Translations under genes and position numbers: made by a program
The notes under the pieces: model-generated
Seen by the model: the letters and a program-made list of their open reading frames with translations, nothing else
Told to the model about the DNA's origin: nothing
Database searches by the model: none
NCBI GenBank assembly: GCA_024305105.1
Contig: JAMWZA010000001.1
Coordinates: 1-64,000, forward strand
From: Marinoscillum sp.
GTDB lineage: Bacteria; Bacteroidota; Bacteroidia; Cytophagales; Cyclobacteriaceae
Direction of reading: 5' to 3'
DNA: 64,000 nt
Shown here: piece after piece, positions 10,024-40,684 of the stretch
Layout of the letters: every line of letters starts with the position of its first letter
How positions within the stretch are numbered: the stretch's first letter is position 1

Positions 10024-12288
10024 TTAATACCCACTGTTCACCACAAACCGTTCGATTTGGTACCCACCGTTCACGTAGCACTTCAAGAGATAAATGCCAT
10101 TTCTTAGACATAGATCGGTAAGCTCCAGCTCTCCTGGCCTTTCGGCGACCACCTGTTTTTTCAAAACCACCCGCCCGTCAATGCTGATGATCTCCACCTG
10201 ATATACTCCTTTTATGGCTCCATCAAACCTAAGGGTGATTGCTTCGCCTTGATTAGGGTTGGGATACAGCGTAAATCCAGTAGCTGCAGGATCGTCAAAA
10301 GACACACTTTTGATTGCTTCCTTTTCTGCAACATTGGCCAATCTGGCTGAATTTTTTGGGAGATGAGTACCACTCTGAAACACAGAACCAAAATCACTCA
10401 TTGGGTATAGTGCTTCGTCCCATCTATTATAGTCAATTCCATCAAATGTTTTATTCAATAAAAAATTCTCATAATAGTAGATCCTGTTTGGCATGAAGTC
10501 AACGACTTGGTTTCTGAATTTCCTCGCTTCCCTAGCCGCTTTTGTCGGATCATTTGGATACAGAATAGGAAACTTCCGATTCTCAAAATAACCTGTTCGG
10601 AGCCAGAGATATAAGGCAAAGTGTTCGGAGTTCTGTTCTTTATACATGTTAGTTGCATTGGCTTGAACATACTCTGAATAATTTCGGCCATCTTCTTTAT
10701 TCGCTTCTTTCCATTCAGAGTCACCATTATTTATACCATCCTTAAAATCCACCAAAAGACGATCGGAGGTTGTATGCACTGATTCGTGTAAAAAAAACTC
10801 AGGCATTTCAGCATATTTATATACTTGCGGGTTTAAAGAAATCCTAATCGAATTACTGGCTAATGGACAGCCATCCCCTTTCCCAAGGTCATTGTAGTTT
10901 ACATAAACATCTTTAATGCCTCTTCTCAACAAACGTGGAATGCGGCCTATATTGTCTGCAAGATCATACATTTGTTTATCCCAGCTATCGGCTCCAAAAA
11001 GAATCATTTCACCTAACCCCCTCGGAACCATATTGCAATTGGTTTGACTTGATTGACCTGAAATTGGGTCAATTACTGTTTGACATTGCTCCACCATCAA
11101 CTTTACATCATCTGTACGTAAATAAAAGTGAACCTCATTTTCATAGACCGTTCCAGCTTCATATTTTGCACTCCATTTAAACACTTCCAAAGATGGCCAT
11201 GTGCTTTTATTACAATCATTACTGGAAGGTGAATAGAATTTCACTCCGGGAATAACATCTTTATCATCGATCGGTCGTCTCCAGCTATTAGTTGAATCTT
11301 TGAAGAGTGTTCGATCACTGTCATCAATAAAACTAAATTCCGATGTTACTGTACCATCAGCACCATTATTTTTAAATTTTGTAATAAAAGGCTCCCTCCT
11401 CTGTGGCTCATCAAAATTGAAGTAATTTGTGATCTTTCCGATTCCTGGAATATAGGAATCCAAAATACTAGAATTGGTAATATCCATCGGTTGATCTTCT
11501 TCTATAGTTACTCTCAGGATAACCGGGACCCTCATCTCCTGAAATGGCTTGACCAGGTTGGATGGCGAAGGATTTCTTTTCAACCACTCCATGGTCGAAG
11601 CATAGTAATTGCTCTTCCAGTCGTCGCTATCTCGCGAAAAACCAGGGCATTCCATGGTACCAAAAGCATCTACAGGACCTGTAGGTGTTTCAAACACGTT
11701 ATAGCGATTGCCATAGAGACAGTTCTCGACCTGAAAACTTTCTCTTTCCCATACATTTGGATCTCCGTAACTGCGGATTCCGTACAATAATCCTTCCTTT
11801 TTTACAAAATCATTCGACTTTTTGCCAAAAATCAGGCTGTCATACACCTCCACAGTAATCCTCGGGCCTGGGGGAAAAGGTGCCAATATTCCATATTCCT
11901 TATTACGATACCTGGAATGCACAGTCAAAGAAAACGCTTCTTTTAAATCGCCGAATCCCATTTGATTCTGATATCCGGACTGTTGACTAAATGGGATACT
12001 CCCATTCAAAAAGACCCCTGTCTGATAGGTTCTAACATATTTTTTAGAAGGTTGTGCCGTAAGTGAATCATTAACAAAAAAAATTAATGAAGTCACTAGA
12101 TAAAACATTAATGATCGTTTTATGAAGCTTAGGCTGAGCAAATAAGATGAAAGGCTATTAAATCTTGAACTAACATGAGCTTGGGTTTTCATGGTGTTTA
12201 TTGTTTCCTGTGTTGATAGATAAAGAATCAGGCAATTCATGACTGTTCGGTTGCAATCTTTTCCTAATGCCCTATTGTCCTGGATCAT
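10024..12288 (-). CDS. Secreted metallopeptidase-like protein with T9SS C-terminal sorting domain
   Basis: 754 aa; HExxH motif (FFLHESVHTTSD); C-terminal FTLYPNPNQGEAITLRF...; start may be the internal MKTQAHVSS. Confidence 0.65.
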   Translation of the reverse strand: MIQDNRALGKDCNRTVMNCLILYLSTQETINTMKTQAHVSSRFNSLSSYLLSLSFIKRSLMFYLVTSLIFFVNDSLTAQPSKKYVRTYQTGVFLNGSIPFSQQSGYQNQMGFGDLKEAFSLTVHSRYRNKEYGILAPFPPGPRITVEVYDSLIFGKKSNDFVKKEGLLYGIRSYGDPNVWERESFQVENCLYGNRYNVFETPTGPVDAFGTMECPGFSRDSDDWKSNYYASTMEWLKRNPSPSNLVKPFQEMRVPVILRVTIEEDQPMDITNSSILDSYIPGIGKITNYFNFDEPQRREPFITKFKNNGADGTVTSEFSFIDDSDRTLFKDSTNSWRRPIDDKDVIPGVKFYSPSSNDCNKSTWPSLEVFKWSAKYEAGTVYENEVHFYLRTDDVKLMVEQCQTVIDPISGQSSQTNCNMVPRGLGEMILFGADSWDKQMYDLADNIGRIPRLLRRGIKDVYVNYNDLGKGDGCPLASNSIRISLNPQVYKYAEMPEFFLHESVHTTSDRLLVDFKDGINNGDSEWKEANKEDGRNYSEYVQANATNMYKEQNSEHFALYLWLRTGYFENRKFPILYPNDPTKAAREARKFRNQVVDFMPNRIYYYENFLLNKTFDGIDYNRWDEALYPMSDFGSVFQSGTHLPKNSARLANVAEKEAIKSVSFDDPAATGFTLYPNPNQGEAITLRFDGAIKGVYQVEIISIDGRVVLKKQVVAERPGELELTDLCLRNGIYLLKCYVNGGYQIERFVVNSGY

Positions 12289-15200
12289 TTCATGATCAAT
12301 TTATGTTGTCGGGTGTATTGATCAGTAGTTACACTTAGCAAGTATGAACCCGAAGGCAAGCCTAACGAACCTAACTTAATCCATTGTATACCATTACTGA
12401 CAGCATTCAATGCTCTTTCATACACCAAACGGCCTTGTAGATCAGTAAGTGCAATCTGGACGGTACCTGACTTTATGATATCCAAAATGATATTAACCTG
12501 ATCACTAGCCGGATTTGGAAAAACGGAAAAAACCGGCTCCCGACTTTCCGCTTGAGCTTCCTCCTGTGCTTCCTGATCCACCAGCCGGGCACTACTGGAC
12601 GTACCTGAATAATAAAGCCTGTATTTCGCTAGCGCATAGGTTATGGGAACCGCATAATTCCAGATGATCACGTTATTGACCAGCCCTGTGAAATTACTGG
12701 GAGTCTCTCCAAACGCATTGGTGCCAAGGCTCCCTCCTACAGCGGATGGGTCTGAATGATCTGGAATGGACGTAAAGGATGAAGATCCATCTGTTTCAAT
12801 GGCCGGATCATCGTTTTGATAGATCAAGAGCTTTCCATCATCATATACCACCATGATGTGATGCCATTGGTTCATGACCAGGCTAGTGTTGGAGGTTGTT
12901 CTTAATTCCTGTCCATTTGAGGCGATCTGCGCCTCAATCATTCCGTTATTTAATCTAATAGCCAATCCGTCTTGCGCTCCGCCTTCATCGTAAAGCATTT
13001 CAACCAGGCCATTCTCTGTAGGATAAATCCACATGGCTACCGTCCGCTCAGCAAATGCCTGACTGATAAATGCATTGCACTGATCCAGTTGCAAAATATT
13101 GCTCCCCACAAACGCTATGGAACTTCCATACGTCACCTTATTGGAAGTATTGTAACAGTCACCACTCGGGCAGCCTGTGATTTCAAAGAGTCCAAAGTCG
13201 TGAGTGCCCGCTTCCAGGTCATCCGCTGGTGCCTCGTCGCTGTTATCACATGTTAGGTCGGCTGAGGGTCTACCAGTCAGGTGAGCCCTTTTGGAGACAC
13301 TGGATTCAGTGGCTTCTACTATTTCCTGATTTGTGGGCGCCACCAATTCGATTAGATAGTCTTCAACTTCACCATCATTAAAAATTTCGCCCTGTGTAGG
13401 TGGCACGGCACCTTTCTTTACCGAGATTCTCATTCTGGTCAATCTCGTTTCTCCGGGCAAAAGGGAGATTTCATTAACGTCTGGCATCTCCTCCTCTAAA
13501 ACGATGGAGGAGCCTGAATGAGTACCACTTGCAAATAATTCTACTTCATGGATGGCTGGATCATACACGAAGTTATAGGTATGATCGATTTCTTGCTTTC
13601 CTCCAAACACATCTCCATTGTAGTAATCAATCCATACTGCGTAGGATACAGATTCATTATTAGGATTGTAAAGGTCAATAGTAAGTTTCAAATTATTTTT
13701 GAGCGCATCGCTACTCATTTTTATGGGGCCTAACTTGTAATTGACATTAACAAGGTTTAGATATCCTCCATTATTATCTGTGGATATGTGTTTTGGAACT
13801 ACGTCCGCTTGCTGATAAGTTATCTGAGAGATATTCAAAACTTTACCCGATTTTCCTCGGCTAGGATGGTAATCATAATGTTTCCAGATATTTTCTAGTT
13901 GTTGCGGTTCAAATAATTCTACGGCGTTATAAGGCATTTGATTGGGTAGCTTTACCGCAGTGACCTTGGAAGTCCCAGCAGATTGTATTTTTAGTTGACC
14001 CTCAAATTGAAAATTCTTTAAGGTTGTTTCGATAGAGTTATTTTCTCTCAAATATTTTAATAGCCAAGCTTTTATCATCTTAGAATCATTGTTAAACCCT
14101 GGATATGAACTTTTAGGTGAAGGTGGAATAGGAAATTCTCCTTCATTCGTTTCCCATGACTTACCTTCAAAAAGAGTGGATGCAGTCATTGCACCATAAT
14201 CGTCCAAAAAACAGCCATAAAGAATCCTATCACTTTCCATGGCCGGATAAAATGTCAAATAAACTTCATCATTATTTGTTCCCGAAAGAATCAGACCATC
14301 TGCCAAATTCTTTTCTCTTTTCTGACCAATCCTTGTGAATCCAAAAAAATCACTGGCACTGAATACCAAAACCGAGGATACCTTTGGGGTTTCTTCCACT
14401 TCCAGATTAAAATCGGTATTATGAGGGATCAGGCCTTCCAAGTATCCACCTGGTATGGTACTAATCCAGGTATTTTGAGGATCAAGATATTTCATCATAT
14501 CTATCCAATTTTCCCTGTACCATAAGTTTTCCAAAAGGGAAGCAGACTGATAGTAAGGGGGTTCTTTATCGGAGTGGCTTGCTACTGCGAAAACCCGACC
14601 ATTTTTATCAAATACAGGGGATCCACTCGATCCCTTTTGCTGGGAATACAATTGGTTGGGAACAACGCTTATTTCAATAAAGTTGGTATTAAAACCTTGA
14701 AATGCCTGAAATTCAAAACTTTCCGGAGAGCGCAAAAATTTCTTAAGGTCTGCGGAAGGATGGCCGATTTGAACAATATCTCTTGTTTTGGTTAATGCAG
14801 GATGTAAAGTCCATCCTAAAGCAAATGTATTTTTGTAAACCGGTGAATCTTTAATTGTCCAGGGATTGGTGGGGTCATCGCTGACTATCTCATAAAGCGC
14901 CAGGTCTGCGTCGGGATCACGTACCAATGATTTAACTTGAAGTCTCCAAAGTCTTTGAATACTCGCATATTCTTCAGGTGCGAACGCACTTTCCTCCCTT
15001 GAGTTGGGATTTGCTGACTCATAATCAAACGATAAATAAATTTCTTTTTTCTTGTCCTTGGGAACACCATCACCAATCGGAAAATTGTTATGATCCACGG
15101 TCATTAAATAAATTTTCTGTTTGTCGTTCTCGAATGAGTTGTCGACAGTATTCACCAAAAATCCTGAACCCAAATGAAATGACTTATCTACAGTTGAATA

Positions 15201-15410
15201 CCAATACAATATGCAAACGCCTTTTTTTAATCGCTGATAGGGTTTTGCATTTGGGTGATTGATATTTCTTGTGAAAACTTGGGAATTCCCTGCCTCCAAA
15301 GGAGTATCTGTAATTAATTCTTGCGCATTAAGACTATTCAAACTTATGAATCCAGAAACAATCCATGCTTTAAGAAAATTTTTCACTATCGTGGCTCTTA
15401 CAGTTCTCAT
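12285..15410 (-). CDS. Secreted trypsin-like/lysyl endopeptidase-like serine protease, GEVED and LamG domains, T9SS sorting domain
   Basis: Triad-like LMTVDHNN / DADLALYE / KGSSGSPVF; GEVEDYLIELV; LamG-like WHHIMVVYDDGKLLIYQN; FSVFPNPASDQVN tail. Confidence 0.82.
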   Translation of the reverse strand: MRTVRATIVKNFLKAWIVSGFISLNSLNAQELITDTPLEAGNSQVFTRNINHPNAKPYQRLKKGVCILYWYSTVDKSFHLGSGFLVNTVDNSFENDKQKIYLMTVDHNNFPIGDGVPKDKKKEIYLSFDYESANPNSREESAFAPEEYASIQRLWRLQVKSLVRDPDADLALYEIVSDDPTNPWTIKDSPVYKNTFALGWTLHPALTKTRDIVQIGHPSADLKKFLRSPESFEFQAFQGFNTNFIEISVVPNQLYSQQKGSSGSPVFDKNGRVFAVASHSDKEPPYYQSASLLENLWYRENWIDMMKYLDPQNTWISTIPGGYLEGLIPHNTDFNLEVEETPKVSSVLVFSASDFFGFTRIGQKREKNLADGLILSGTNNDEVYLTFYPAMESDRILYGCFLDDYGAMTASTLFEGKSWETNEGEFPIPPSPKSSYPGFNNDSKMIKAWLLKYLRENNSIETTLKNFQFEGQLKIQSAGTSKVTAVKLPNQMPYNAVELFEPQQLENIWKHYDYHPSRGKSGKVLNISQITYQQADVVPKHISTDNNGGYLNLVNVNYKLGPIKMSSDALKNNLKLTIDLYNPNNESVSYAVWIDYYNGDVFGGKQEIDHTYNFVYDPAIHEVELFASGTHSGSSIVLEEEMPDVNEISLLPGETRLTRMRISVKKGAVPPTQGEIFNDGEVEDYLIELVAPTNQEIVEATESSVSKRAHLTGRPSADLTCDNSDEAPADDLEAGTHDFGLFEITGCPSGDCYNTSNKVTYGSSIAFVGSNILQLDQCNAFISQAFAERTVAMWIYPTENGLVEMLYDEGGAQDGLAIRLNNGMIEAQIASNGQELRTTSNTSLVMNQWHHIMVVYDDGKLLIYQNDDPAIETDGSSSFTSIPDHSDPSAVGGSLGTNAFGETPSNFTGLVNNVIIWNYAVPITYALAKYRLYYSGTSSSARLVDQEAQEEAQAESREPVFSVFPNPASDQVNIILDIIKSGTVQIALTDLQGRLVYERALNAVSNGIQWIKLGSLGLPSGSYLLSVTTDQYTRQHKLIMK
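12572..13374. repeat. 803-bp block shared with 15715..16517 (copy A)
   Basis: Constant offset of 3143 bp; identical in the coding frame and in an antisense frame (94-aa ORFs at 12972 and 16115). Confidence 0.93.
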
Positions 15411-15427: not shown

Positions 15428-18400
15428 TTAATTGATCAAAATCGTTTCTTTTCTTAGCTGATTTCCTGATCGAACTTTTAATATGTAGGTCGCGGGCAAA
15501 AGATTTAAACTTTTCAAGCTAACCAACTGATGCCCTTCAGAGATGTAATCGCGTTTCATCTCATAGACTTGCTTCCCATTCAAATCAAAAATCTTCAAAG
15601 TGAAAGGTCCTGCTTTACGCACTTCCATCAATACATTGACCTGGTCACTAGCCGGATTTGGGAAAACGGAAAAGACCGGCTCCTGACTTTCCACTTCAGC
15701 TTCTTCTTGCCCCACCTGATCCACCAGCCGGGCACTACTGGACGTACCTGAATAATAAAGCCTGTATTTCGCTAGCGCATAGGTTATGGGAACCGCATAA
15801 TTCCAGATGATCACGTTATTGACCAGCCCTGTGAAATTACTGGGAGTCTCTCCAAACGCATTGGTGCCAAGGCTCCCTCCTACAGCGGATGGGTCTGAAT
15901 GATCTGGAATGGACGTAAAGGATGAAGATCCATCTGTTTCAATGGCCGGATCATCGTTTTGATAGATCAAGAGCTTTCCATCATCATATACCACCATGAT
16001 GTGATGCCATTGGTTCATGACCAGGCTAGTGTTGGAGGTTGTTCTTAATTCCTGTCCATTTGAGGCGATCTGCGCCTCAATCATTCCGTTATTTAATCTA
16101 ATAGCCAATCCGTCTTGCGCTCCGCCTTCATCGTAAAGCATTTCAACCAGGCCATTCTCTGTAGGATAAATCCACATGGCTACCGTCCGCTCAGCAAATG
16201 CCTGACTGATAAATGCATTGCACTGATCCAGTTGCAAAATATTGCTCCCCACAAACGCTATGGAACTTCCATACGTCACCTTATTGGAAGTATTGTAACA
16301 GTCACCACTCGGGCAGCCTGTGATTTCAAAGAGTCCAAAGTCGTGAGTGCCCGCTTCCAGGTCATCCGCTGGTGCCTCGTCGCTGTTATCACATGTTAGG
16401 TCGGCTGAGGGTCTACCAGTCAGGTGAGCCCTTTTGGAGACACTGGATTCAGTGGCTTCTACTATTTCCTGATTTGTGGGCGCCACCAATTCGATTAGAT
16501 AGTCTTCAACTTCACCAAGATTATACTCACCATTTTGGCTGAGCAACTCATTAGAAACTGCCACACGCAAGCGGGTCTTCCGACTTTGACCCGGTTCTAA
16601 TTGTAATTCTCTGGCTGTAGGGAGTTGATAGGTGAGGGTGACCAATCCATCAGACGCAAAGCCTGCCGCCACTTCCTCTAGTGGATGTGCAACCGGATCA
16701 TCAACAAAATTATAGGTATAGCTTTGTGAAGGGTCTTCCAGGTCAAGATCTCTACGGCCCTCCAGTTCCTCTGTGTTGAAATAATCAACCCAAATCTTAT
16801 AATTATACGGGAATACTTGATTCACAACATTGAGCTTCAATTCAATTTCCTTTTTGAATGTTTGGCTCCAACTCACTTTGACCTTACCAATCCTAAAATT
16901 TGGGTTGACCAGATTAAGATATCCGCCATTATTACCTGTTTCGATATCTCCTACAATTTGATCATCCTGGCTGACAGTGAGTTGATCAATATAAAGCGGA
17001 TCACTATGCTCACCGCTACTGGACCTGTATTTATAGGATTGGAACTGATTAGATACCTGATCAGGTCGGAAAAGTTGCAGGGCATTGGTGGGCACTTCTC
17101 CGGGGTAGCTCAGTGCCTGTACCTGCGCAGATGATGTGCCCAGGTTTTTCAGTCTGATGATGACGGGTATCTTGGCGTCTTTTATAGATTGAATGTCACC
17201 AGCCTCCCTAGCTCCAGTAACGAAGGCTCGTGCAATAGTAGCAATGTAATCTATACTATTACCCAAAAATTGTTGTATGGGCCACCAATGCTGATCTTCC
17301 TGTCTTTCGCAAGGAGCAATCCCAACCAGATCAGTGCCACATTGCCAACTGCTCATTCGGAAACCTTCTGCCCCCTCATCAACTGTATTATCTGCGATAC
17401 TGCCAAAAATCAGTTTTTCGAAATACTCACCGGTCGCTTCATCCTTTAGCAAAGCATGTACAGTAAGCTGAATAGGGCTCGCATCGGGGTTAAGCAGTTT
17501 GATGCCGAGTAGACTCTCCAGTGTATTGACGTAGTTAAGGTCATCAAATATCATCCATGGCCTCAGGTAGCTCACCTGATCCGACAGCATGGAAGGATCT
17601 GATGGATGAATCCCGGGCGTCTCTAATAGTTGATCAGCGGCCAGCGTCAAATTGAAGTTACCAGCTGTAGGTACCAAATCATTGAGATAACCACCAGGAA
17701 GCGTCTTCAGCCAATGGCCATCGGGATCAAGGTAGGTACGCATTGAGGCTCCACTTTCACTATTGTACCAATTATTGGCGATGGCGGAGGAAAGCTGATC
17801 CGTTTGGTCGCCCGCAGAGAGTACTCCCAACAAACTGCCATGGCTGTCATAAATACCCGAGCCACTCGATCCTTTTTGAGGATACGTGTTAATACCATTC
17901 CATGTGCCCTTGGTTTCATAAAACAGACCTTCCCGGATCTGGTCATTTCCTGCCATAAATTTTCGCAGAGATAACTGGCTCTTTTCCGGATTGGAAAATA
18001 CCTTCTTATGATCTCTCGCTGGATGTGATATATTGAGGTTCGGATCTATACCCAATGAGGCATTCCAACCTGCTGCAAAGACGTTTTCATACCATTCTTC
18101 TGATCCCTCCTTTCTTAATTCAACAAGCGCGAGATCACTTGTTCGGTCCATTAAACGGATTGTACCTCCTACTACAAATACCCTGGTAATGTATTCGTCT
18201 GTAGCCATAGACCCACGCTCAAGAGCATGAGGATGTTCATAATTGAATGATATGGTCAGACCTACTTCAGCACCTGCGGTCCTCGACGGAAGACAATGGG
18301 CTGCAGTAAGTAAGAGTATTTTCCCTTGCTGTGGTGCGCTGTTTACTATGGTACAGGAGCAGAAACCATCCGTACCATTATCGTTATCGATTATGATCCC

Positions 18401-18586
18401 TGTTGCACGCTTCAAATATTGATACTCGGTCCCGCCTGGATGATTTATGTTGCTGTTATTAGCGTTCGAATATCCAATAAAGTTCATCCCTGGAAATAGC
18501 TGAGGTAAGGTATATTGGGCATTAAGGTTTACCCATAGAATAAGGAAGAAAATCTGTAATAGAAATATTCTAATGCATCTTGACAT
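15428..18586 (-). CDS. Secreted trypsin-like serine protease paralogue, GEVED and LamG domains, T9SS sorting domain
   Basis: Triad-like LLTAAHCLP / TSDLALVEL / KGSSGSGIY; same GEVED/LamG block; VFSVFPNPASDQVNVLMEV tail. Confidence 0.85.
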   Translation of the reverse strand: MSRCIRIFLLQIFFLILWVNLNAQYTLPQLFPGMNFIGYSNANNSNINHPGGTEYQYLKRATGIIIDNDNGTDGFCSCTIVNSAPQQGKILLLTAAHCLPSRTAGAEVGLTISFNYEHPHALERGSMATDEYITRVFVVGGTIRLMDRTSDLALVELRKEGSEEWYENVFAAGWNASLGIDPNLNISHPARDHKKVFSNPEKSQLSLRKFMAGNDQIREGLFYETKGTWNGINTYPQKGSSGSGIYDSHGSLLGVLSAGDQTDQLSSAIANNWYNSESGASMRTYLDPDGHWLKTLPGGYLNDLVPTAGNFNLTLAADQLLETPGIHPSDPSMLSDQVSYLRPWMIFDDLNYVNTLESLLGIKLLNPDASPIQLTVHALLKDEATGEYFEKLIFGSIADNTVDEGAEGFRMSSWQCGTDLVGIAPCERQEDQHWWPIQQFLGNSIDYIATIARAFVTGAREAGDIQSIKDAKIPVIIRLKNLGTSSAQVQALSYPGEVPTNALQLFRPDQVSNQFQSYKYRSSSGEHSDPLYIDQLTVSQDDQIVGDIETGNNGGYLNLVNPNFRIGKVKVSWSQTFKKEIELKLNVVNQVFPYNYKIWVDYFNTEELEGRRDLDLEDPSQSYTYNFVDDPVAHPLEEVAAGFASDGLVTLTYQLPTARELQLEPGQSRKTRLRVAVSNELLSQNGEYNLGEVEDYLIELVAPTNQEIVEATESSVSKRAHLTGRPSADLTCDNSDEAPADDLEAGTHDFGLFEITGCPSGDCYNTSNKVTYGSSIAFVGSNILQLDQCNAFISQAFAERTVAMWIYPTENGLVEMLYDEGGAQDGLAIRLNNGMIEAQIASNGQELRTTSNTSLVMNQWHHIMVVYDDGKLLIYQNDDPAIETDGSSSFTSIPDHSDPSAVGGSLGTNAFGETPSNFTGLVNNVIIWNYAVPITYALAKYRLYYSGTSSSARLVDQVGQEEAEVESQEPVFSVFPNPASDQVNVLMEVRKAGPFTLKIFDLNGKQVYEMKRDYISEGHQLVSLKSLNLLPATYILKVRSGNQLRKETILIN
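15715..16517. repeat. 803-bp block (copy B)
   Basis: See 12572..13374. Confidence 0.93.
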
Positions 18587-18764: not shown

Positions 18765-21700
18765 CTAGTGCTGAATGATCAATTGCTGAGAAATGATCTG
18801 ATCGCTTCCTGTAATCTTCAACGCATAAACCCCTGAAGCCAGTGACGATACAGACAAGACTGTATGATTTACACCACTACTTAAAATCAATTCCGATTCA
18901 TACACTACATTTCCCTTGAGGTCTATCAATGTCAACTCATACGACTCACTCTCCGGAACTTCAATCTGGATATTGGTTATGCCATCCCTGACCGGATTTG
19001 GATACACATTGACAGACCAATCAGCTCCGAGCACATCTTCTTCCTCTTCAGCAATCCTTGCGCCCGAAGCTGGATTTAAGAACAGATTGGCCAACCTCAC
19101 ACCAATCATACGATAGGAATCATGATCCCAATGTACTCCAGTGTCTTTTGTATTGTTGTCCTGACCGTCAAACGTACTCATCCCAGCGGCACTCGCAACC
19201 CGTATATTTGGCGTGAGGTCCGCCATCGCATGATAAGCGGCATTGAGCTGAGTATGACTCCACTCATCTCCCGCAGGTAAGTCCGGTCGATAAGACACTT
19301 CGGGGATCAAAAATAGCAGATCCTCATCGGCAAAATAAGATGCAAATTCATTGTAAAGAGCACGCGCCTTCTGAGCATAATTTAATTCGCCGTTATTGAT
19401 GCGCTGTGCATCATTTTCACCTTGCGCCCAAATGATCCCCTTAAAGTTAAGATTGGAGTATTGAGATACTGCTTCATTTACCCTCCTTAGCGTCTCATTG
19501 TACAGGTTTTCACCACCATAGCCAACAGAGAACTTGCCATACGCTTTTTTCTTAGCTTCAGATGGCACATAGTCCGGCATCCACTCGTCCAGATCTGTTC
19601 CTCCAATTGGGTTCACGATCAGACCAAGTTTTGTTGATCCATAAGTCGAGTCATTGTTTAAGGTCTGTGCAAAGGTCCATCCGAAACCAAGGGCTTGCGT
19701 AAACTGGATCTTACCTACCGAAGAGTACCTGGCCAATGCATTCTTTGCCTGTTCAAATTGGCCTTTCTCATTTAACAGGTAAGTCTTGGTTAATTCACCC
19801 GTCTCATCTCCGGTGAATTCGTCGTAGCAGTAGTTGCTTCCACAGCGCCCTTCCGCATTGGACTGTCCCAGGATCAGCCATACGTCCAGTGCCTCTGAGG
19901 TATTAGTGAGTGCCGTACCCCGCCTACCTTGCAAGTCATAGCTATCTACACGCCCCTGCTGCTCATCATCCCGATTGATCAGGTAAAACTGATCGATCTT
20001 ATCCCCGTCCTCGTTGATAAACTGGAACATCATCATATTGCTACCCGTGGTAGCGGTAAGCACGCCATATTTTTTCGCATAATGCGTGCCCTCCACCAAC
20101 GTAGCGGGATACTGTGCTGAATAGTCATTTTCGTTTCTACTACTACCACCAAGGCCCACATTAACGAACGGTACACCATTGACGTCATGGCGCTCATAAT
20201 AACTTGGCGAAGAAGAGACAAACAAATCCACCCCCATGGCTTTGAAATCCCAATTATTGAGAAAATCACTTTTTAGTGTCGTAGTATAAGGAGAATAATA
20301 GCTCAGTACGACCTGATACTTCCTGGTGGAGGCCGCCACGCTCGTTTCAAGCCAGAGCTTCATCTGATCTGTAAAGGCATTAGCAGAAGGCAGGGTACTA
20401 GGCCCCACTCGATTGATGGTATTGAGCACAAAGTACTCGACATCATTGGAGGAAAAAGAGTAGTAGGTCTCGTTCTTACCGAAGAAATCAAGCCAAAACT
20501 CCTCACCGACTAAGCCTCGGTGACTAACTCCATCCTTATAGTCCGCCCTACCCACTACCGGAAACAAGCTCCCATTAGCCAGGTGATTTGCAAAAATGTT
20601 CTGAAAACTTGTATAGAAATCATTACTATTATTTGCCTGAGACGGATACTGTATATTACCTAGTGTGACAATTGTGCCCGGTTCGATCGAATTAATGAGC
20701 GATTTTAGTTTGCTCATTTGGGGAGTTTCATTATAACCGATATTACCCATGAGCACCATTTTATTGGCTACCACTCCAGTGAGGTTGTCAGGACAAGCTC
20801 CATCGCAAAAAGCCTCCATGCCCCCTCCCTCGGCCAATATATTGAGTCCGTCGGAAGGCACTCCATGTTCGAAAGTAAAAAAGCTCATATTCTCCCAGCC
20901 TGACCCAACAAGGTCTTTGGTAGGTACGGTTTCATTATCAGATCCAACCCAAAAAGGCTCCCAATAGAGCAATCCACTACCACCATCTGTGCTTTTCAGC
21001 ATGTCTATTAGCGATAGTAGCCACTGCTTTTGGAGGTTATCACTTGTCACTTTAGGGAATCCCCTACCATCCTGTACGTCATTCCATTCTTGTCCCCGAT
21101 ATCCAAAACCCATTTGATTTTTGGAACAATCACTGTAATCATAGGAACGCGGAAAGGCGGTTTCAACAATAACGGTAGGTAAACCGGTTACGGTCTTAAT
21201 ATTGCCAATAATTCCAGATAAGGTTGCAATGTTAACACTCGGTGTATTATTCTCCATTTCTAATGGCTCTGCCTCAGCCAGATAGTAGCTCATGCCTAAA
21301 AAGTCAATTAAACCACGATTAATCACTTCGGTCCCAATACCATTGTCAGATCTGTTTATCCAGGATTCCCCGGGAACATTGCCATCGGTGTATAGTGCCT
21401 TTTTAATCCAATCTTGCGCCCGGTAAGTGCCGGCTATATGAACCATCGTTTTGATGTCTACACTATTGTTTGTAGCAAAGCTTTTTACAGCTTGCAGCCC
21501 TGCATTGAGAAGTCGAGCATTTCTGTCCCAGTTAATCGTAAACTTGGAACCGTTCATTTGGGCTTCAGTCACTCCTATCTCACTGGCAATCTGAGCTACA
21601 GTAAGCTTTTCATATTCATCTGATAGTAGAATATTACTATTGGTCTCATTCCCTACTTGCACGTAATCGGGGGTAGCTCCGGCAGCAATCAATGTTTGCA

Positions 21701-24700
21701 GCGTATTTGTTACGTAATTTGCTATGGTTGATTCCAAGGTATTCACATCAGGTATCTGACCACTTACTTTCCAGCTTTCCGGGATGATGTTGGCACCCGG
21801 GTCGGTCCAGGTATCAGACATGTGAAGATCCAATAGTACCTTTAATCCTTTAGCTTTCGCTCGTTGGATTTGTGTTTTGACCTCATCAATACGTGAGAAA
21901 TCATAGCTTGTGCCGACAGCACTTGATGGTACCTGACAAAACTGGTCACCAGAACTCTCGTATACAGGATCTACCCATAACCTTAATCTGACCGTGTTCA
22001 TCCCATAGTCGCTGATAAGCTCATAGGGGTCGACACTCGTCTGACCATAACCCCAGCTAATGCCTTTGGCCTCCAGATTGGGTACGCTGGACATATCTGC
22101 TCCCGCCATCCAGTCTTGTGGCAACTCGCCCGGTGTTATGTACTTGGCAATGTGAATGGGCTCTGTCGGGTGGTCAGGGTCTGTTACGTTCACTTTGATC
22201 TCGCCGGTAGCCAGATCATCTTCATGAATGAGCTTGACCTGACCAGAGCGTAGCTTCCAGTAGAAATCGTATTTTTTCTTTTGGAGATCAGTGAACTCTG
22301 GCAAGAGCTGGTTGGTAGCAGTGACATAACTATCATAAGCCTGCTCAGTGTCGTGTAGTCCGAAAGCATTTCCAGAAAAAGCTCCCTGATTATTATCAAA
22401 AATAGCTGCAAGCTTATTCAGGGTTTTGATATTGGTTCGTGTGCGGTAGCCCTTCCACTGCGTTTGGGACACCCATGGAAGCCTCACCTGCCAGGGCTCG
22501 ATGAGATTGGAATGACTATCGAAATAGGCCTTGACCTTACTATTTACTCCCCCTTCATCTTTGATAATGTTGTAGCCAGGTATGTCCGTGATCACTTTAG
22601 GGTCTGGTCCAGGCATGTAATGAAGAATCCAACTTGACGGATACCAATCATCTAACTGCTCTGGCAATTGCGATAAATCTGTTGATGGTAGTACCAAGAT
22701 ATCGCGCTCATCATGATTAAAACCATTCGGCTTGACCCAACTAAAGTTGGTGTTGAAGTCATTTTGAGGGCCATAGCGATTGGTCTTAGTGCCAGGCGTC
22801 ATCCCTGCTATTCCTTTTTGTGCTTTTGGCCCCTCGCTGTAGGTAAACTGACTGTAAATCTCATCAACCACGGCTAGCTTCACTGGATTGAGGTTGGGTG
22901 TAGTACCTCCATTGGCCTGAGTCGCCCATTCTGCTATCCAGTCTTTTTGCAGGGCTGTCAGCTCAGTGATTTTGATTTTACCCAAGGAATGCTCGGCCGT
23001 GTTCGTCCGGTCATTGGTTTTGTCGTAGGCATAGCTAGACGGCTTTACGATTACTTTAGCCTTGACTGAGCTTGCTCCATTGTAAACACATTTTAAGAAG
23101 TACGTACCTGCATTGGCGAACGTATAAGTGAGGTGGCGTCCATCCCCAACCGGAGCACCCGATATACCACCGGGATCGGCCGATAGGTACCACTTAATTC
23201 TATTCTGAAGGTAAGCATCATCCAGGCGCTTGCTCATAAACCGCTCGGACAGATAGAAGTCCACATCATAGTGCAGAAATGTATGCGGATCTGCATCCAT
23301 GATGTTGAAGCTCACCTCCTGGCCTTGCTCAAATACATAAGGAAACTCCTTGGTGCGACCGATCTCTTCCGGATAAATGCCGGCCAGCTCATCTGTCAGT
23401 TTATTGTTGAAATCCCTCAGGTACCAAAAATTCCCTTCGCCTCTTCCTTCTTTAAGATCTACTCCAGGAGGTATATTACCATCAGCATAAAAATCCTTGT
23501 AACCATTACTCCCTGGTACGGACAGAAACCTCAGCTGAATTTCCAATAATTCCTTACCCGCGATGATCACCTTCTCACTACTCTGGGAAAACTGATAATA
23601 GACAGTAATCTCATGATAGCCAGATCCTTCGATATTAAAATTCTCTGTCCAATTGCCGTTATTGGTATTTTGTGGATTAAACTTTCTAGCAAACACTTCC
23701 AGGTGACCCAGAGGATTCTCATAGCTATATTCCATGACCAACTTGTTCTTGAACGCTGTGGTCATTCCTGATACATTCATCGTGTAGGGCACATTTTGTT
23801 GAAAAGCCGCCGGGCTGTTTTCGCCCGATATGCTATAAAATGGCTTATCGATAGCACCTGTACCTGGAAGTTTTACATTCAAGCCGAGCGAATGCTCATC
23901 GTAGCGGGAATCATCTATACCATTTATCGCGAAGGTTTGAAGCAGACCTGGCACTGGTATAGAAGATTCGGTGGCCTCTTTAAATTTTAGTGGTCGCTTT
24001 TTGTTGAAATAGTCTTTGTCTTCAGTAACGGACGGATCATGAACATACTGTTCTTTATCCAGTATTTCCGTCAGTATGTTACCTGCTTCCTCACCATACC
24101 TTCTTAGCCAGTAGTCGTATAGCTCGGGGTTTGTTTCTTTAAGCTGAAACATACGGTTGCGCTGGTAAAAATTGACCATTATGTTGACTGGATCTAACGT
24201 TGGCCCCTCCTTCATCTCTTTCCAGTCTTCCTTTAGTTTTTGTAACAGATCCCGATTACCAACGGGATTGGCAGGATTGGTATTTTGCTCCAGGAGGACG
24301 ATCTCATCACCATCTAATCCTGAGACTATCCGGTAATCATCCGCATTGTAATCATACCCCGTAAAGTCTTTTATTTTTTGAGAAATCCAGTCACTCCAGC
24401 TTCCAGGCGTAGTTCGCGACTTATCCCAGGAGGTGATCAGCTCTACATTCAGTCCTTCCTTTTGGTTATTTCGCTGCTGCTGTACGGTCTCACCTCCACC
24501 TATATCGAATGATTGTCGACCAAATTTGGCCGCATCTTTAAATTTCTCAAACGCTATATTGCCATTTGCCGAGCTGGCAGGGTCATAGGCCGGAGCTCCA
24601 GCTTGCACATTGCCTTCTGCGATCCAGTAGTAGTAGAGTGTGCCGTTTGGATCGCTGGTGACAGGTGCTAAAGTCGGATACTGCTTATGTGCAGGGTCTG

Positions 24701-25634
24701 GATGCTTACGCAGCGCCACCCCATGTACCTGGCTATCAAAACCTATAAAGGGCTTGAAACCTGCCATGCGCTCCGGGGAATAGTAATACTTGCTCTCTCC
24801 TCCGGTACGAGCAAGCCATACCTCCCTGAGCCCACTCACCGTGAAGGTTGGGTCTGTGGTCTTAAATACCACCGAATCACCTACCTCCAGATCCAGAGTA
24901 GTCAGCTCATTGAGCGAATAACTGTTCTTCAATCCCCTGTCGCTATAATTATATACATCCACGACCACATCGTGTTCCTGCGCAAAAACGTATGGTGGTA
25001 CGCCTGGCACCTTCACCTTATGCACGATGGCATCCTGATAGGTGATCCTGAGTACTACCTTAAGCTTAGGATCTGAACTGACTGACCGGAAGCCCTTCTG
25101 CCAGTGGTAAGCCCGCATCATGGCACGCTTGTACTCATCCGTATCCCAGATAGTCACACGATCACTGTCATCTATTTTTGAAATTTCCTTGCTCGTATAG
25201 CTCTTATCAAGCATGGCCAGGGTGAAGCGTACCGGAACATTCGAGTCCGGATCATTAAACGCATAATAAGCAGATCGACTGTAGCTATTGGTATTGCTTT
25301 CTTCGGTATAAATCTTCAGGAGACTGTTGGTTCCGTTCAGATCTAAAACTTGCGTCTGGGTACCTATGGGTAGTGCCAGCAGTTCTACCTCTACAAAGCC
25401 GTCTGGTCCGGTCATTTCTGCCTGGATACCCCAGTCTGTGTCTTCTCCCGCCAACTCAAATAACTGCTCCAGATCCACATCTCTTGCTTCGGAGTAATAA
25501 AAATCTGGCACTAACTGACCGTAGGCAAGGCGACCACCACAGACCAGCATAAGTGACAATATCAGCCACCTACACACACTGGAGGCCCATATTCGTGCTT
25601 CCGTGGTATTATTTGTAAAATACTTCATTGTCAA
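18765..25634 (-). CDS. Giant secreted multidomain protein: ~1150-aa unassigned N-terminus, GH53 endo-galactanase, degenerate calcineurin-like domain, SASA esterase, T9SS sorting domain
   Basis: GH53 (GADMSS..., YVQVGNETN, VIVETAFP); phosphoesterase-like fold signature with substituted motifs; SASA (LILGQSNAEG, WAQGENDAQ, VHWDHDSYR); VYPNPVRDGITNIQIEV tail. Confidence 0.85.
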   Translation of the reverse strand: MTMKYFTNNTTEARIWASSVCRWLILSLMLVCGGRLAYGQLVPDFYYSEARDVDLEQLFELAGEDTDWGIQAEMTGPDGFVEVELLALPIGTQTQVLDLNGTNSLLKIYTEESNTNSYSRSAYYAFNDPDSNVPVRFTLAMLDKSYTSKEISKIDDSDRVTIWDTDEYKRAMMRAYHWQKGFRSVSSDPKLKVVLRITYQDAIVHKVKVPGVPPYVFAQEHDVVVDVYNYSDRGLKNSYSLNELTTLDLEVGDSVVFKTTDPTFTVSGLREVWLARTGGESKYYYSPERMAGFKPFIGFDSQVHGVALRKHPDPAHKQYPTLAPVTSDPNGTLYYYWIAEGNVQAGAPAYDPASSANGNIAFEKFKDAAKFGRQSFDIGGGETVQQQRNNQKEGLNVELITSWDKSRTTPGSWSDWISQKIKDFTGYDYNADDYRIVSGLDGDEIVLLEQNTNPANPVGNRDLLQKLKEDWKEMKEGPTLDPVNIMVNFYQRNRMFQLKETNPELYDYWLRRYGEEAGNILTEILDKEQYVHDPSVTEDKDYFNKKRPLKFKEATESSIPVPGLLQTFAINGIDDSRYDEHSLGLNVKLPGTGAIDKPFYSISGENSPAAFQQNVPYTMNVSGMTTAFKNKLVMEYSYENPLGHLEVFARKFNPQNTNNGNWTENFNIEGSGYHEITVYYQFSQSSEKVIIAGKELLEIQLRFLSVPGSNGYKDFYADGNIPPGVDLKEGRGEGNFWYLRDFNNKLTDELAGIYPEEIGRTKEFPYVFEQGQEVSFNIMDADPHTFLHYDVDFYLSERFMSKRLDDAYLQNRIKWYLSADPGGISGAPVGDGRHLTYTFANAGTYFLKCVYNGASSVKAKVIVKPSSYAYDKTNDRTNTAEHSLGKIKITELTALQKDWIAEWATQANGGTTPNLNPVKLAVVDEIYSQFTYSEGPKAQKGIAGMTPGTKTNRYGPQNDFNTNFSWVKPNGFNHDERDILVLPSTDLSQLPEQLDDWYPSSWILHYMPGPDPKVITDIPGYNIIKDEGGVNSKVKAYFDSHSNLIEPWQVRLPWVSQTQWKGYRTRTNIKTLNKLAAIFDNNQGAFSGNAFGLHDTEQAYDSYVTATNQLLPEFTDLQKKKYDFYWKLRSGQVKLIHEDDLATGEIKVNVTDPDHPTEPIHIAKYITPGELPQDWMAGADMSSVPNLEAKGISWGYGQTSVDPYELISDYGMNTVRLRLWVDPVYESSGDQFCQVPSSAVGTSYDFSRIDEVKTQIQRAKAKGLKVLLDLHMSDTWTDPGANIIPESWKVSGQIPDVNTLESTIANYVTNTLQTLIAAGATPDYVQVGNETNSNILLSDEYEKLTVAQIASEIGVTEAQMNGSKFTINWDRNARLLNAGLQAVKSFATNNSVDIKTMVHIAGTYRAQDWIKKALYTDGNVPGESWINRSDNGIGTEVINRGLIDFLGMSYYLAEAEPLEMENNTPSVNIATLSGIIGNIKTVTGLPTVIVETAFPRSYDYSDCSKNQMGFGYRGQEWNDVQDGRGFPKVTSDNLQKQWLLSLIDMLKSTDGGSGLLYWEPFWVGSDNETVPTKDLVGSGWENMSFFTFEHGVPSDGLNILAEGGGMEAFCDGACPDNLTGVVANKMVLMGNIGYNETPQMSKLKSLINSIEPGTIVTLGNIQYPSQANNSNDFYTSFQNIFANHLANGSLFPVVGRADYKDGVSHRGLVGEEFWLDFFGKNETYYSFSSNDVEYFVLNTINRVGPSTLPSANAFTDQMKLWLETSVAASTRKYQVVLSYYSPYTTTLKSDFLNNWDFKAMGVDLFVSSSPSYYERHDVNGVPFVNVGLGGSSRNENDYSAQYPATLVEGTHYAKKYGVLTATTGSNMMMFQFINEDGDKIDQFYLINRDDEQQGRVDSYDLQGRRGTALTNTSEALDVWLILGQSNAEGRCGSNYCYDEFTGDETGELTKTYLLNEKGQFEQAKNALARYSSVGKIQFTQALGFGWTFAQTLNNDSTYGSTKLGLIVNPIGGTDLDEWMPDYVPSEAKKKAYGKFSVGYGGENLYNETLRRVNEAVSQYSNLNFKGIIWAQGENDAQRINNGELNYAQKARALYNEFASYFADEDLLFLIPEVSYRPDLPAGDEWSHTQLNAAYHAMADLTPNIRVASAAGMSTFDGQDNNTKDTGVHWDHDSYRMIGVRLANLFLNPASGARIAEEEEDVLGADWSVNVYPNPVRDGITNIQIEVPESESYELTLIDLKGNVVYESELILSSGVNHTVLSVSSLASGVYALKITGSDQIISQQLIIQH

Positions 25635-25712: not shown

Positions 25713-28700
25713 CTACTTTTCTGATATAAGTTGATTGACCAGTGCTTCCAGTCTGGCCAGCTTTTCGGCCTGGGCCTTAAGCTGCGCCTCTTGTGTGGCA
25801 ATGGTTTTCTCCTGAGCGGCTTGCATGGAAGTCATCGAAGTGATCTTCTTCTCCTGCGCGATGTTGTGCAGTACCTGCTCCTCGAGGTTTTTGAGCTGGC
25901 CTACCAGTACCTCCGGCACACGGTAGAATCCCTGCTCCTTGATCTCAGACTCGCTGATGACGCCTGGCAGGTGCTTGTGCTCCATGAGGAAGGTTTCCAT
26001 TTCTTCCAGAGATTTTAGGTCATAATCCTCCGCGAAGACATAATCTGCCCATTGGTCGGTGGAGGCTATGGCAAGATCTGTAGTAAGAATGCCGCCTGCA
26101 CCTGTTGATCCTGTACCATCGTTTGATACGAAAAGAGCAAATTGCTTAGCTGCTGCCGAGAAACTTGAATAATCCTTTTTTAAACCAACAAACAACTCAT
26201 TCGGAACCCAAACTTTTGGATTCTGATCGGTGGCATTATCAGTCAATAAGGCAAGCCCAGTATACCTTATTCCACTCACTTGCTTAGATATGGCGAAATC
26301 ATGACCATCTGTTCCCGGGGCGAATGTCATTGTATTACCGATGAAGTAATCTGATTCATTGGAACTATTACCATGCAATTGAATTATGCCACTAGCACTG
26401 TTAGACCTACCCAGATCCAATTTTGAATAATCCCGAGACTGGCCGGGGCTGATCCCGTAAGATTCCCTAGCCAAACTCATCACTTTACTTCCACTATTAT
26501 TACTACTACTTACAAGGTTAAAACTTAATGTTACATTATCATTACCATGTTTTGCTTCTATTTCAAAATCATGATGCCCAGTAGAGACGTTATCATATGG
26601 TGAAAACCTTAGCTTAGCGGGGTCATTTTCCTTGGTATAAATCTGTACATAATCTTTAAAATTACCTGCGCCAGGAAATATTCCCAACCTCCTGGAAGTA
26701 AAGACCGTGTCTGCATTATCCGGATCGATCACTGTGAAGTGGTCGGCTGTAATGGTGAGTTCCTCTTCGTCCGTGTCCGTAGCATCGCCATAGACCAGGT
26801 TACCTTTTAGACTAAGGTCTCCATAAACTTCCGTATCACCAGACAGATTAATACTGTTTGCCATTAGGTTTATCCTATTACCTTCCTTGTTGACATTTAC
26901 CGTTGCTGAATTTGCATCGCCTATTTGTACGGTTCTATTTCTAGCACCTAAGACTAAACTATTTCTAACGAACTCCTCACCCGTTTGTGGATTTATAATG
27001 CCGGTTCCTTCCTCTAGACCTCCGTCTATCGTAACAGTACCTCCCGTTGTACCAATTAAAAGAGCAGGTTGTCCGTTAGGGGGGAAGTCGTCAGCGTCAT
27101 ACCAATCATCACTTGAACCCTCGAAATAGGCATATGGCATTTTATTAGGAGCTACTTCTTGAGAGTAAGTAGTAATACCATTAATAGTTTCTTCCTTCAC
27201 TCCACCAGAGCCTATCGTCTGCCCATTCACCGTCAGGTCACCATCGACTTCTAGTGTGCCGAATACTCTTAGCTTCTTAGTTGTATTATTAGGATTACCT
27301 ACTAGTACGTCGTTTCCACCATAGTAATTTAAATATATGTTCCTGTCGGTTGGGGCATCCATATGAATATTTTGACCCGCTAATCCCTTATAGTTTCTGA
27401 AATAGGTGCTTGAAGTAGGATTCCGACCGATAAAATTATCAGCCTTTATTGCTCCACTTACTTCTAGCTTTTCAGTAGGATTGGAGACACCTATACCTAC
27501 GCTACCAGCTGTGGTAAGCTGACCTTCTGAAGTCACGAGAAATTTTGATCCATCGACCCCAACCTGAATCGAAGCGTCAGATCGAATGATCCCAGCTCCA
27601 CTGTAAAGATTTGTGCCGGAGGTTCTGATCCAGCTTGGATCAGTCATGATAAAGCCTTTATCGTACGAGCCAAAATTGTAGGTTTGTGCTATTGCTTTTC
27701 CTGAGATTTTTACATCGCCCACTACCTCTAGCTTTTCGCTGGGGCTAGTGGTGCCTATGCCTACGTTTCCCTGGTGCGAGATCACCATTCTGTCAGTGAG
27801 TGTAGACACATCCGTATTAGATGCCCTGGAAGTACTTCCTGTAGCAAATACCAGGTCAGCTTGTAAGTTTCCAGGATTTAGGTTCTTCCTGTAGATGTTT
27901 GCGGTCTGGGCCCCTCCACTGTTCTCAAAAGAAATACCCGCATCTTCATCATTATTGTTTGTTTTGATGGTCAATTGTTCACGGCTCTCACCTCGTATAA
28001 TACTCCTACCATCTACATCAAGCGACCCAAGCGACCCTGTAAGATTGGCTGCATTTAGGTTAGTAAGCTGCGAACCATCACCGATGAAGGCGGTAGCTTT
28101 TACATTGCCGGCTACATCCAGCTTTTCAGTGGGGCTGGTGGTGCCTATACCTACGCTACCCTGTACGATGAGGCCATTGTCATATTTAGTACCATAGTAT
28201 GCCTCTCCTATGGAAAGACCTCCGTCTATTCCTACGTGTGATTTAGCTAAAGCACCACTACCAGGAGCTAAAACAATACCCGTTCTGAAGGCTATCTTCA
28301 GCTGCTGGAAGTCACCAGACCAGGGACCTTCTTCTCTGTAAATACCGTAAAAATCATTGTTTTGCCAATAAAGCCCCTGCTTACCGTCTACTCCTACATT
28401 GTCTCCAAACGTAAGCTGGCCACTGCCCAAATCAAGTGTTCTCTTTGGGTTGGCAGTGCCTATACCCACTCTGCCAGTACCAGTTCCGTCTATCGTCATT
28501 ACGCGTTTTGATCCCAATGCATTCGTAGCATCTGTTCCCTGGTCCCATACATAAAAATCAATGGAATTGGAATTTTCACCTAAACTATTGTGCCTTGTTT
28601 TGATGGCATGCTGAAAACTAGTACCTCCGGCATATCCCAAAGCAATCTGGGTACCAGTAGTACTACCAGTAGGGCCTCCGCCTTTCAGGGTAATAGAATT

Positions 28701-30863
28701 ACCGATATTTAGACCGGTAAGCTGCGAACCATCACCGATGAAGGTGGTAGCTTTTACATTGCCGGCTACATCCAGCTTTTCGGTGGGGCTGGTGGTGCCT
28801 ATACCAAAGTTTCCATTATTTAACAGAATCATTTTATCAACATTTCCCAATCGGAATCGGATATTTCTGGAGCCAGCTGCGTTTAAAAAAGTTTCTCCAT
28901 TATTCTGCTGTACCAGTGCATAATCACCTCCAGCAGTACGATCAATATGGCTGAATTGAGCGTAACCGCTATTCCCTGCATATACACCTGCGTACATATT
29001 ACTACCAATGAATGCTTGTGCTTTTACATTGCCTACTACTTCTAATTTTTCAGTGGGGGTAGTGGTGCCTATACCTACACCTACATTTCGCTTGAGAATA
29101 AATTCGTTTGTAGAGGAAGCGTTGTTGGTAGATAAATATAAATCACCGCTGGTCGTATAAAAACCTACGTCGTTTACTCCATTGTAGTTTCTTTTGATGC
29201 CATGCGCTGAATTACCCAAATACACAGCTCCTTTGCTAGTACCTTCCCCTACTCTGATAGCAGCATCTGGTCCGCTGATGTCCAGCATATAACCAGGATT
29301 AGTTTTCCCGATACCTACATTGCCATTGCTTCTCAGCGACATTACCGTATTATGATCGGCGAATGAGCCATCGGTCAGTTTAATGTCTAGTTGAGAACGG
29401 GAAGAGGTGCCCACGTTTTCATATCTCCCCAAGGCAAATGAGGCTTTGTTACCATAAGCCTGACTGTTTACCCCTTCTCTTACTAAACTCAATACATCTT
29501 TAGCAGGAGCTGGTGTGTTGCCACCATTATGTTCTGTACTTTCAAAAACCGTGGCTGTTGAATTATTGGCATGATTGTAACCCGCATCATGAGCAATGTC
29601 GTTTTGATCTCCCAACACACTAGCGCTAACGTTGGTGAGCTGCGAACCATCACCGATGAAGGCATTTGCGGTAGCACTGCCATCAGCAGTAAAATCACCG
29701 CGGATTCTGGAGCCTACCTGCTCCCATTGGTTAAAATTACCGTTTTCGTTTGTGCGCGTCCACATCTCTCCAGCAGTATTTCTCGGCACGGCCAGTTCCA
29801 TATTATAATTAGGGTATTGACTACCCAGGGAAGTCCTTAATCGATACCAATGACTGCCTGCTCTAGGCGCATTTGTTGACCCAATAACGTAATTCCAGCC
29901 CCACTTGTCAGTAGGTGTGTTAAAATCGCTATATTTAGAATGACTCTCTAATTGCCCGAAGTTGCCGTCTGAGCTGCCGAAACTGGTAGGTTTGTTACTG
30001 ATGTTGTCCCAGTTGAGGTTGGTGAGCCCGCTACCATTTCCACTGATTTTATGATTGTTACCAAGCCAAACGTCTTTAGAAAGTATAATTCCTCCGCTAT
30101 AGGTCCGAATATGAATTGAACCATATGATTCAAGACGCATACCTCCACTGGAACTAATTTTGAGTGTTTCATTTCCGCCAGGTGTAGTGATCTCTCCTCC
30201 GATGAAAGTGTTGGCTTTTACATTGCCAGCAACATCCAGTTTTTCAGTCGGTGAAGTAGTACCTATACCAACATTACCTCCAGAATAGTTGACATTACTA
30301 CCATTGGCTGTCCATAATGAACCTCCAAAATTGGTAGGTTTGTTACTGATGTTGTTCCAATTGAGGTTGGTAAGCTGCCCACCGTTACCGATAAAGTTGC
30401 TGGCATTCACATTGCCTGTAACAACTAAAGGTTTATACGCATTGATGACAGATGAAGTCATCTGCCAAATATTCTGATTATTTATTTTTGTCGTTAAGGT
30501 ATTATTAGCATCCAAAACTAAAGTACCATTTGAATACATTCCATAACCATTACTCGTGGCATTGACAGTTAATTGCCAGCCACTATTCTCCCAATCTTGA
30601 GCTCCCTGACGCATGATAACTGCTTTACCAATGGTCAAATTATCATATGACTTACCTTGAATAGGACCAGTAGTGTTGAGGTTTCCATTGACCGTGAGAT
30701 TTCCATTCACAGTCTCGGACTGTGCCTGTGCGATAGTAACCCCTCCCAGGAGTATGACCAGCATCACCAGCAGCCTGCCGGCATGAGATGACGGGATGCT
30801 TTCCCATCTGAACCGATCAGAAGACCGGTACTTTTTCGAGTATTGTCTTACTAATTTTTTCAT
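25713..30863 (-). CDS. Tail-fibre-like repeat protein with C-terminal S74/endosialidase-chaperone-like region
   Basis: 1716 aa; about eight [22 protein letters not shown]-type repeats; C-terminal [20 protein letters not shown]...[19 protein letters not shown] and coiled coil. Confidence 0.85.
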   Translation of the reverse strand: [1716 protein letters not shown]

Positions 30864-30868
30864 AATTC

Positions 30869-31435
30869 CTATTGTTTGTTATTTTTCTGAAGATTCGTGT
30901 ATTCCTCCAGCACCAGATTCTTCAGGTTGGTTTCTTCCTGAGCGAATAGGACCATGGGAGGACCATTCTGCGCCCGCACATCGGTGTTGAGGATGTGGGT
31001 ATAGCCATACTCCCCAGCTACCTGGTCAATGGCTGACTGCACTTCCGTGAGGATGGGCTGCACGAGGCTGCTGTCTCTTTTGGCCACTTCTTCCTCAGAT
31101 ACTTGCTTAAATGCCTGAATGGACTGGGACAGGCTTTGCAGCTCGGTGAACCTGTCGGTCTTGATGACCTCATTCATAGATGCTGAGTCCTGTACGTAGG
31201 CTTGCTGCTTTTCCTGAAACTCAGCCACCTTAGACTGTAAGGCTACATTGAATTCATAGATAATCGTGTCGAGTTTGCCGCGCTGCATCTGATATTCAGG
31301 AATCTCAGACACCAATTCATTGATACTGAGGTAACCTATTCTTGAAGTGGGTGGAGTCTCAGTCGTCTTAAATGCACTAACCAGCAGTGACAGTACACAT
31401 AGCACCACGGCTGTAGGAAGTAGGAATTTTTTCAT
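30869..31435 (-). CDS. OmpH/Skp family periplasmic chaperone-like protein
   Basis: 188 aa, signal peptide, IGYLSINELVSEIPEYQ...QAIDQVAGEYGYTHILNTD pattern. Confidence 0.82.
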   Translation of the reverse strand: MKKFLLPTAVVLCVLSLLVSAFKTTETPPTSRIGYLSINELVSEIPEYQMQRGKLDTIIYEFNVALQSKVAEFQEKQQAYVQDSASMNEVIKTDRFTELQSLSQSIQAFKQVSEEEVAKRDSSLVQPILTEVQSAIDQVAGEYGYTHILNTDVRAQNGPPMVLFAQEETNLKNLVLEEYTNLQKNNKQ

Positions 31436-36897: not shown

Positions 36898-36915
36898 AAT
36901 TGGTTTCCTTTTTCA

Positions 36916-38367: not shown

Positions 38368-38411
38368 AAAGGAACTACAAATCTGATGCTTCGATCATAC
38401 AATATTTACTT

Positions 38412-40484: not shown

Positions 40485-40498
40485 TTCAATAGTATCGA

Positions 40499-40660
40499 AG
40501 CTGTCTCAAAAGCTACGTCTTTTGTCATTTCGAAGTAACGAGGTGTTCCACCAAAGAAATCTTACTCGTTTGATTGTCAATACATTAAAGTTTGAAGTAA
40601 ATTTCACCATAGCCCGTCTTGACGGCAGACAGGTCGAAATGACACCTTTTTGAAACAGCC
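40499..40660. mobile_element. MITE/REP-like non-coding palindromic element (~162 bp)
   Basis: Ends AGCTGTCTCAAAAG / CTTTTTGAAACAGCC inverted; inner perfect GTCATTTCGA / TCGAAATGAC. Confidence 0.6.
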
Positions 40661-40684
40661 TCCTTTTGTAAACCTACCAACTAC

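Follow-up and report, generated by a model that had tools for sequence, protein, structure and literature searches.

The window analysed here is a 64,000-nucleotide stretch of Marinoscillum sp. DNA (assembly GCA_024305105.1, contig JAMWZA010000001.1, positions 1 to 64,000), and all of its features named below are encoded on the minus strand. The gene under study (18765..25634) specifies a secreted multidomain protein of 2289 residues in a stop-free open frame, with an N-terminus that reads as signal-peptide-like and a listed TTG start, an ATG two codons downstream (25628) being an equally likely one. The frame is confirmed as real, a chance or artefactual origin being ruled out by strong domain matches and by the presence of one of its modules in nine outside loci. 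From N- to C-terminus the protein comprises an N-terminal domain (residues ~30-225; 24960..25547), an uncharacterised module of about 900 residues (~225-1165; 22140..24962), a GH53 domain (1177-1590; 20865..22106), a pseudo-metallophosphoesterase domain (1618-1912; 19899..20783), an SASA esterase-like domain (1916-2186; 19077..19889) and a type A sorting tail of the type IX secretion system (T9SS; 2210-2287, 18774..19007). The GH53, SASA and Por_Secre_tail (E 1.4e-10) matches all exceed the Pfam cut-offs, the tail is also recognised as NCBIfam TIGR04183 (E 6e-11, 42 bits) and the genome encodes the translocon protein SprA (2432 bits), so that both hallmarks of a T9SS type A substrate, a C-terminal sorting domain and the secretion machinery, are present. 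The GH53-SASA-T9SS fusion proposed in an earlier, sequence-only reading is thereby borne out, and the motifs it quoted are all located in the protein (GNE 1328, VETAF 1490, GQSN 1923, QGEND 2071, GVHWD 2166); residues ~30-1165, half of the polypeptide, were absent from that description.

Much of this N-terminal half is taken up by the 900-residue module, for which profile searches of Pfam, NCBIfam and PDB sequences returned nothing meaningful. A scan covering a single genome for each species found homologues at nine further Bacteroidota loci, with hosts among Flammeovirgaceae and Flavobacteriaceae, an Alistipes metagenome-assembled genome (MAG), Sphingobacterium deserti and Pseudarcicella hirudinis. 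The module is nevertheless rare, occurring in 2 of the 390 genomes sampled in the same order and 1 of 395 in the phylum, with the window's own genome counted. An alignment of the ten sequences, which share 24-41% identity with the window copy, has about 55 columns that stay invariant although the sequences come from different Bacteroidota families. In five proteins (the window's and those of loci L054, L055, L056 and L058) the module is directly followed by a GH53 domain, and in L055 a GDPD domain lies C-terminal of the GH53, where the window protein carries its phosphoesterase and SASA domains. The other five are module-only proteins, four of which (L059-L062) have GH123 enzymes encoded in the same locus, accompanied by SusCD in L061 and L062 and by a hybrid sensor in at least L060; the Alistipes module-only locus has no recognised enzyme. 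Since GH123 is absent from its genome, the window protein itself can have no partner of that family.

A second recurrent feature of the module loci is the gene next door. Upstream of the 2289-residue gene lies one for a 1716-residue protein (25713..30863), which we read as tail-fibre-like from its VGIGTTxPxxKLDVxG repeats and coiled-coil-like C-terminus. A profile of that C-terminus, seeded from all fibre-positive loci except L054, finds such a neighbour of the module gene at each of the 9 loci with a visible flank: the window, L054, L055, L057, L058, L059, L060 (one gene away), L061 and L062, the L056 contig ending too early to be counted. Pairwise comparison also connects the fibre proteins of the window, L055 and L060. 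The adjacency is not due to chance, given about nine fibre C-termini in all of the window's 5.8-Mb genome; a link between the module and the remaining fibre loci of this genome was looked for and not seen, and the N-terminal-domain signal there is weak. The 81 nt that separate the fibre gene from that of the 2289-residue protein (25635-25715) contain a predicted hairpin of -42 kcal/mol (z -5.7, with no shuffled sequence equalling it) followed by a T run, possibly a partial terminator giving more fibre than enzyme, and this hairpin is not among the calls of a consensus terminator scan. On the other side of the fibre gene is an OmpH/Skp-like chaperone gene (30869..31435; Pfam OmpH, E 5.5e-25) with a homologue in L055 (E 1e-72).

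The history of the gene can be approached through a paralogue of 892 residues in the same genome (L026:10415-13093), which consists of the N-terminal domain (39% identity, E 1e-32) followed by phosphoesterase, SASA and tail (55% over 667 residues) and has neither module nor GH53. From this pattern of matches, the window protein equals the paralogue with some 1400 residues added from position ~212 to ~1617, and those residues match as one module-GH53 unit in L054, a contig of a Flammeovirgaceae MAG that breaks off within the GH53. As to direction, we infer that a gene of the paralogue type most simply gained the module-GH53 unit by insertion, although loss of that unit from an ancestral fusion would also agree with the data. 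The paralogue's 18.5-kb contig carries no fibre gene. A similar GDPD-like gene of about 300 codons is found near this paralogue (L026:13819-14721) and near the module locus of another genome (L034:15316-16224), possibly reflecting a phosphodiester decoration on the substrate. An N-terminal-domain profile built from other loci only and run on 1028 frames matches the 754-residue window protein described below, the paralogue and the 2289-residue protein (E 4e-4 to 2e-3; 1.7e-3 for the last), and gives a weak match (E 0.05) to the GDPD protein adjoining the fibre gene in L060. These scores are low, and the domain is a tentative one.

The calcineurin-like domain named in the sequence-only reading proved homologous to metallophosphoesterases, as proposed, but is catalytically dead by sequence, because every D/N/H metal ligand has been replaced. 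Stand-alone homologues from the same order, the best of which align over the full length at 28-31% identity (E as low as 5e-20), carry GDYG, GDNNY, GNHD, HH and GHDH, the classical motifs, where the window domain has GN, GN, GRAD, YY and SSPS; the Tyr of GDNNY is kept. The ligands of the two-metal site (D, GDxxY, GNHD, H and GHxH) thus give way to N1631, N1660, R1696/A1697, Y1779/Y1780, S1809 and S1811, and a working phosphoesterase is ruled out by their loss. The homologues match PF00149 at about 5e-14, the paralogue at 0.0019 (under the cut-off), and the window domain alone has no meaningful Pfam match. Identity between the window protein and the paralogue is 54% in this domain and 61% in SASA, and the dead domain therefore appears to be under constraint comparable to that on its esterase neighbour. 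It is a pseudo-enzyme that has been retained. A scan of genome contigs with the phosphoesterase and SASA domains revealed no relatives, so that the pair is known here from the window's own genome only.

The GH53 domain, by contrast with the phosphoesterase, is apparently intact as a galactanase. It scores 178.3 bits against PF07745 (E 2.8e-52; gathering cut-off 24), and alignment with the ordinary GH53s of the same genome and its relatives places the catalytic pair at E1330 (acid/base, GNE) and E1491 (nucleophile, VETAF); the LDxH, SYY and YWEP motifs are kept, with Met for Tyr in LDxHYSD (LDFHYSD). The fused GH53s of L055 and L056 have the catalytic Glu, a Met in place of the His of LDFHYSD and an altered YWEP motif, and may have changed specificity. 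In the GH53 tree, four of the five module-attached domains fall in one clade (support 100/99) and that of L058 in another, well separated group; the pairing therefore either arose twice or saw its GH53 swapped.

The SASA domain (107.4 bits against PF03629, E 1.1e-30; gathering cut-off 24.8) retains the GQSN serine block with S1925, the Gly and QGEND blocks and the catalytic His (H2168) in alignment with the SASA proteins of its own genome. Esterase activity is plausible, not certain, and de-acetylation by this domain plausible but unproven. In the Flavobacteriaceae MAG locus L056 the order is SASA, module, GH53, an arrangement unrelated to that of the window and with an SASA domain of a different lineage. 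The pairing of esterase and galactanase therefore recurs and is ruled out as a one-off. This recurrence lends support to the earlier idea of coupled de-acetylation and backbone cleavage, which appears reasonable, the displaced Asp of the SASA triad (see below) counting on the other side.

The remaining neighbours fall into two groups. Downstream lie two tandem genes for proteins with trypsin-like and LamG domains and a T9SS tail (15428..18586 and 12285..15410; Pfam, NCBIfam), whose LamG regions are 98.3% identical over 889 bp while the rest of their sequences differ far more, suggesting recent gene conversion or a domain swap there. Beyond them is the gene for the 754-residue protein (10024..12288; Pfam, profile), which shows similarity to the N-terminal domain and carries a T9SS tail; its HExxH motif, HESVH, is zinc-peptidase-like, and no Pfam peptidase family recognises the protein. 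Some 10 kb from the 2289-residue gene, a galactan polysaccharide utilization locus (PUL; 35755..45329, Pfam) encodes GH53, sulfatase, GH53-T9SS, SusD and SusC, thus two more GH53s and SusCD, along with a sensor, and its substrate may be a sulfated galactan.

Taken with this setting, the data point to a galactan-degrading enzyme that is exported and attaches to glycan or fibre through its N-terminal half, a reading to which we assign a probability of about 0.5. T9SS would carry the protein to the cell surface or into the medium, where its GH53 domain would make endo cuts in a pectic or algal beta-1,4-galactan and the SASA domain would probably strip a blocking ester, most likely acetyl. The dead phosphoesterase domain could serve as a structural or ligand-binding spacer, and the N-terminal domain and module together would form a conserved core for glycan binding and/or docking to the fibre protein, with the OmpH-like protein acting as the periplasmic chaperone of the latter. 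The gene itself would have been built from a paralogue-type gene and a module-GH53 unit inserted between ~212 and ~1617. Several points weigh against this reading. The gene stands outside the SusCD operon, with neighbours of its own, and fibre docking is something we infer from gene adjacency alone. The triad Asp of the window SASA lies at -4 from the His, one residue further away than in other SASA members of this genome (-3), and is replaced by Asn in the paralogue. The two GH53 lineages may also reflect a single module-GH53 joining with later replacement of the GH53 in L058, on which the module tree is indecisive. Finally, the module could equally be catalytic.

This last point leads to the best-surviving alternative, in which the module would represent a new family of glycosidases or lyases that act on galacto-configured glycans alongside GH53 or GH123. 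Its large size and its numerous invariant residues (D, E, H, R and W), kept at such low identity, would suit an enzyme, as would the stand-alone secreted form in GH123 loci, at the place where an endo-enzyme is expected. Nearly all loci, however, already have a glycoside hydrolase of a known family fused or nearby, and some stretches of the module are Ig/PKD-like in single weak matches, so we consider a catalytic module unlikely. More doubtful is the view of the protein as an ordinary multidomain T9SS carbohydrate-active enzyme, with fibre adjacency and pseudo-phosphatase incidental and the module a generic run of Ig-like spacers. Bacteroidota do encode many mosaic T9SS proteins. DUF1735 in PULs has likewise been interpreted as a spacer (PMC11216935), but neither the invariant columns shared across families nor the unbroken fibre adjacency would be expected of one, and this view is improbable. 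Fibre-delivered, effector-like cargo with variable hydrolase ends, aimed at other cells (microbial or algal envelopes) and not at nutrient acquisition, would explain the varied ends (GH53/SASA, GDPD, HExxH) after related N-termini, the BD-FAE-type esterase of another fibre cluster and the co-encoded fibre and trypsin-like proteins, but it is very unlikely given the SusCD, hybrid sensors or GH123 of most module loci, which fit glycan feeding, and the absence of any immunity-like gene among those seen.

The fibre neighbourhood can be extended to other clusters of the same genome. OmpH-like genes above cut-off are confined to a tandem pair on contig C179, the window operon and a second fibre cluster on contig C264, and the four long trypsin-like frames (about 1000-1100 codons) all lie in fibre clusters, two in the window and one each on C264 and C2, the two strongest Trypsin_2 matches being of ~500 codons, like ordinary periplasmic proteases. 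The C264 cluster (L073, C264:38000-57000) comprises two fibre genes, a GDPD-like protein, the OmpH-like gene and a fusion of trypsin and BD-FAE esterase with a T9SS tail, and its GDPD-like protein and another have weak N-terminal-domain matches (E about 1e-3). We raise, as a speculation that we consider unlikely, an undescribed recurrent Bacteroidota cassette in which tail-fibre-like protein, OmpH-like chaperone and T9SS-tailed trypsin-like proteases would form a surface or released fibre displaying N-terminal-domain-bearing hydrolases (GH53/SASA, GDPD, esterase), an analogue of the cellulosome with the 900-residue module as its glycan-specific core.

We found no description of GH53 and an SASA-type esterase in one protein, nor of T9SS tied to such fibre proteins, in the open-access literature and the titles and abstracts covered. 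The stronger novelty, beyond coupled de-acetylation and cleavage, lies in the module and its fibre neighbour: a conserved 900-residue module, which has no meaningful match in Pfam, NCBIfam or PDB sequences, is associated with galactan and GH123-type loci and can be tested directly, and gene neighbourhood offers a clue to the role of the tail-fibre-like Bacteroidota proteins, which are common and functionally unassigned. If the fibre link is true, it would represent a new way of presenting secreted enzymes; of interest in its own right is the dead phosphoesterase domain, which has been conserved to much the same degree as the esterase beside it.

Galactan PULs with extracellular GH53 have been described (PMC5238430). 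With the GH53 endo-beta-1,4-galactanases (BtGH53/BT4668; PDB 1r8l, 6gp5) the window protein has in common the TIM-barrel motifs GNE and VETA(Y/F)P and a nearby PUL with SusCD and sensor, but the characterised galactan-PUL GH53 is a single soluble enzyme, whereas that of the window is embedded with module, dead phosphoesterase, SASA and T9SS tail. The SASA/DUF303-type carbohydrate esterases (PF03629) share the GQSN, Gly and QGEND blocks and the catalytic His, and differ in the position of the Asp. Likeness to the PF00149 metallophosphoesterases extends over the full length of T9SS-tailed, active-looking homologues, the ligands being replaced throughout in the window domain. Finally, the DUF1735 N-terminal spacers described in PUL proteins, and those of SusE/F, resemble the window protein in that an N-terminal domain precedes varied C-terminal carbohydrate domains (PMC11216935), but the N-terminal domain of the window is without a Pfam match and belongs to T9SS proteins adjoining a fibre gene.

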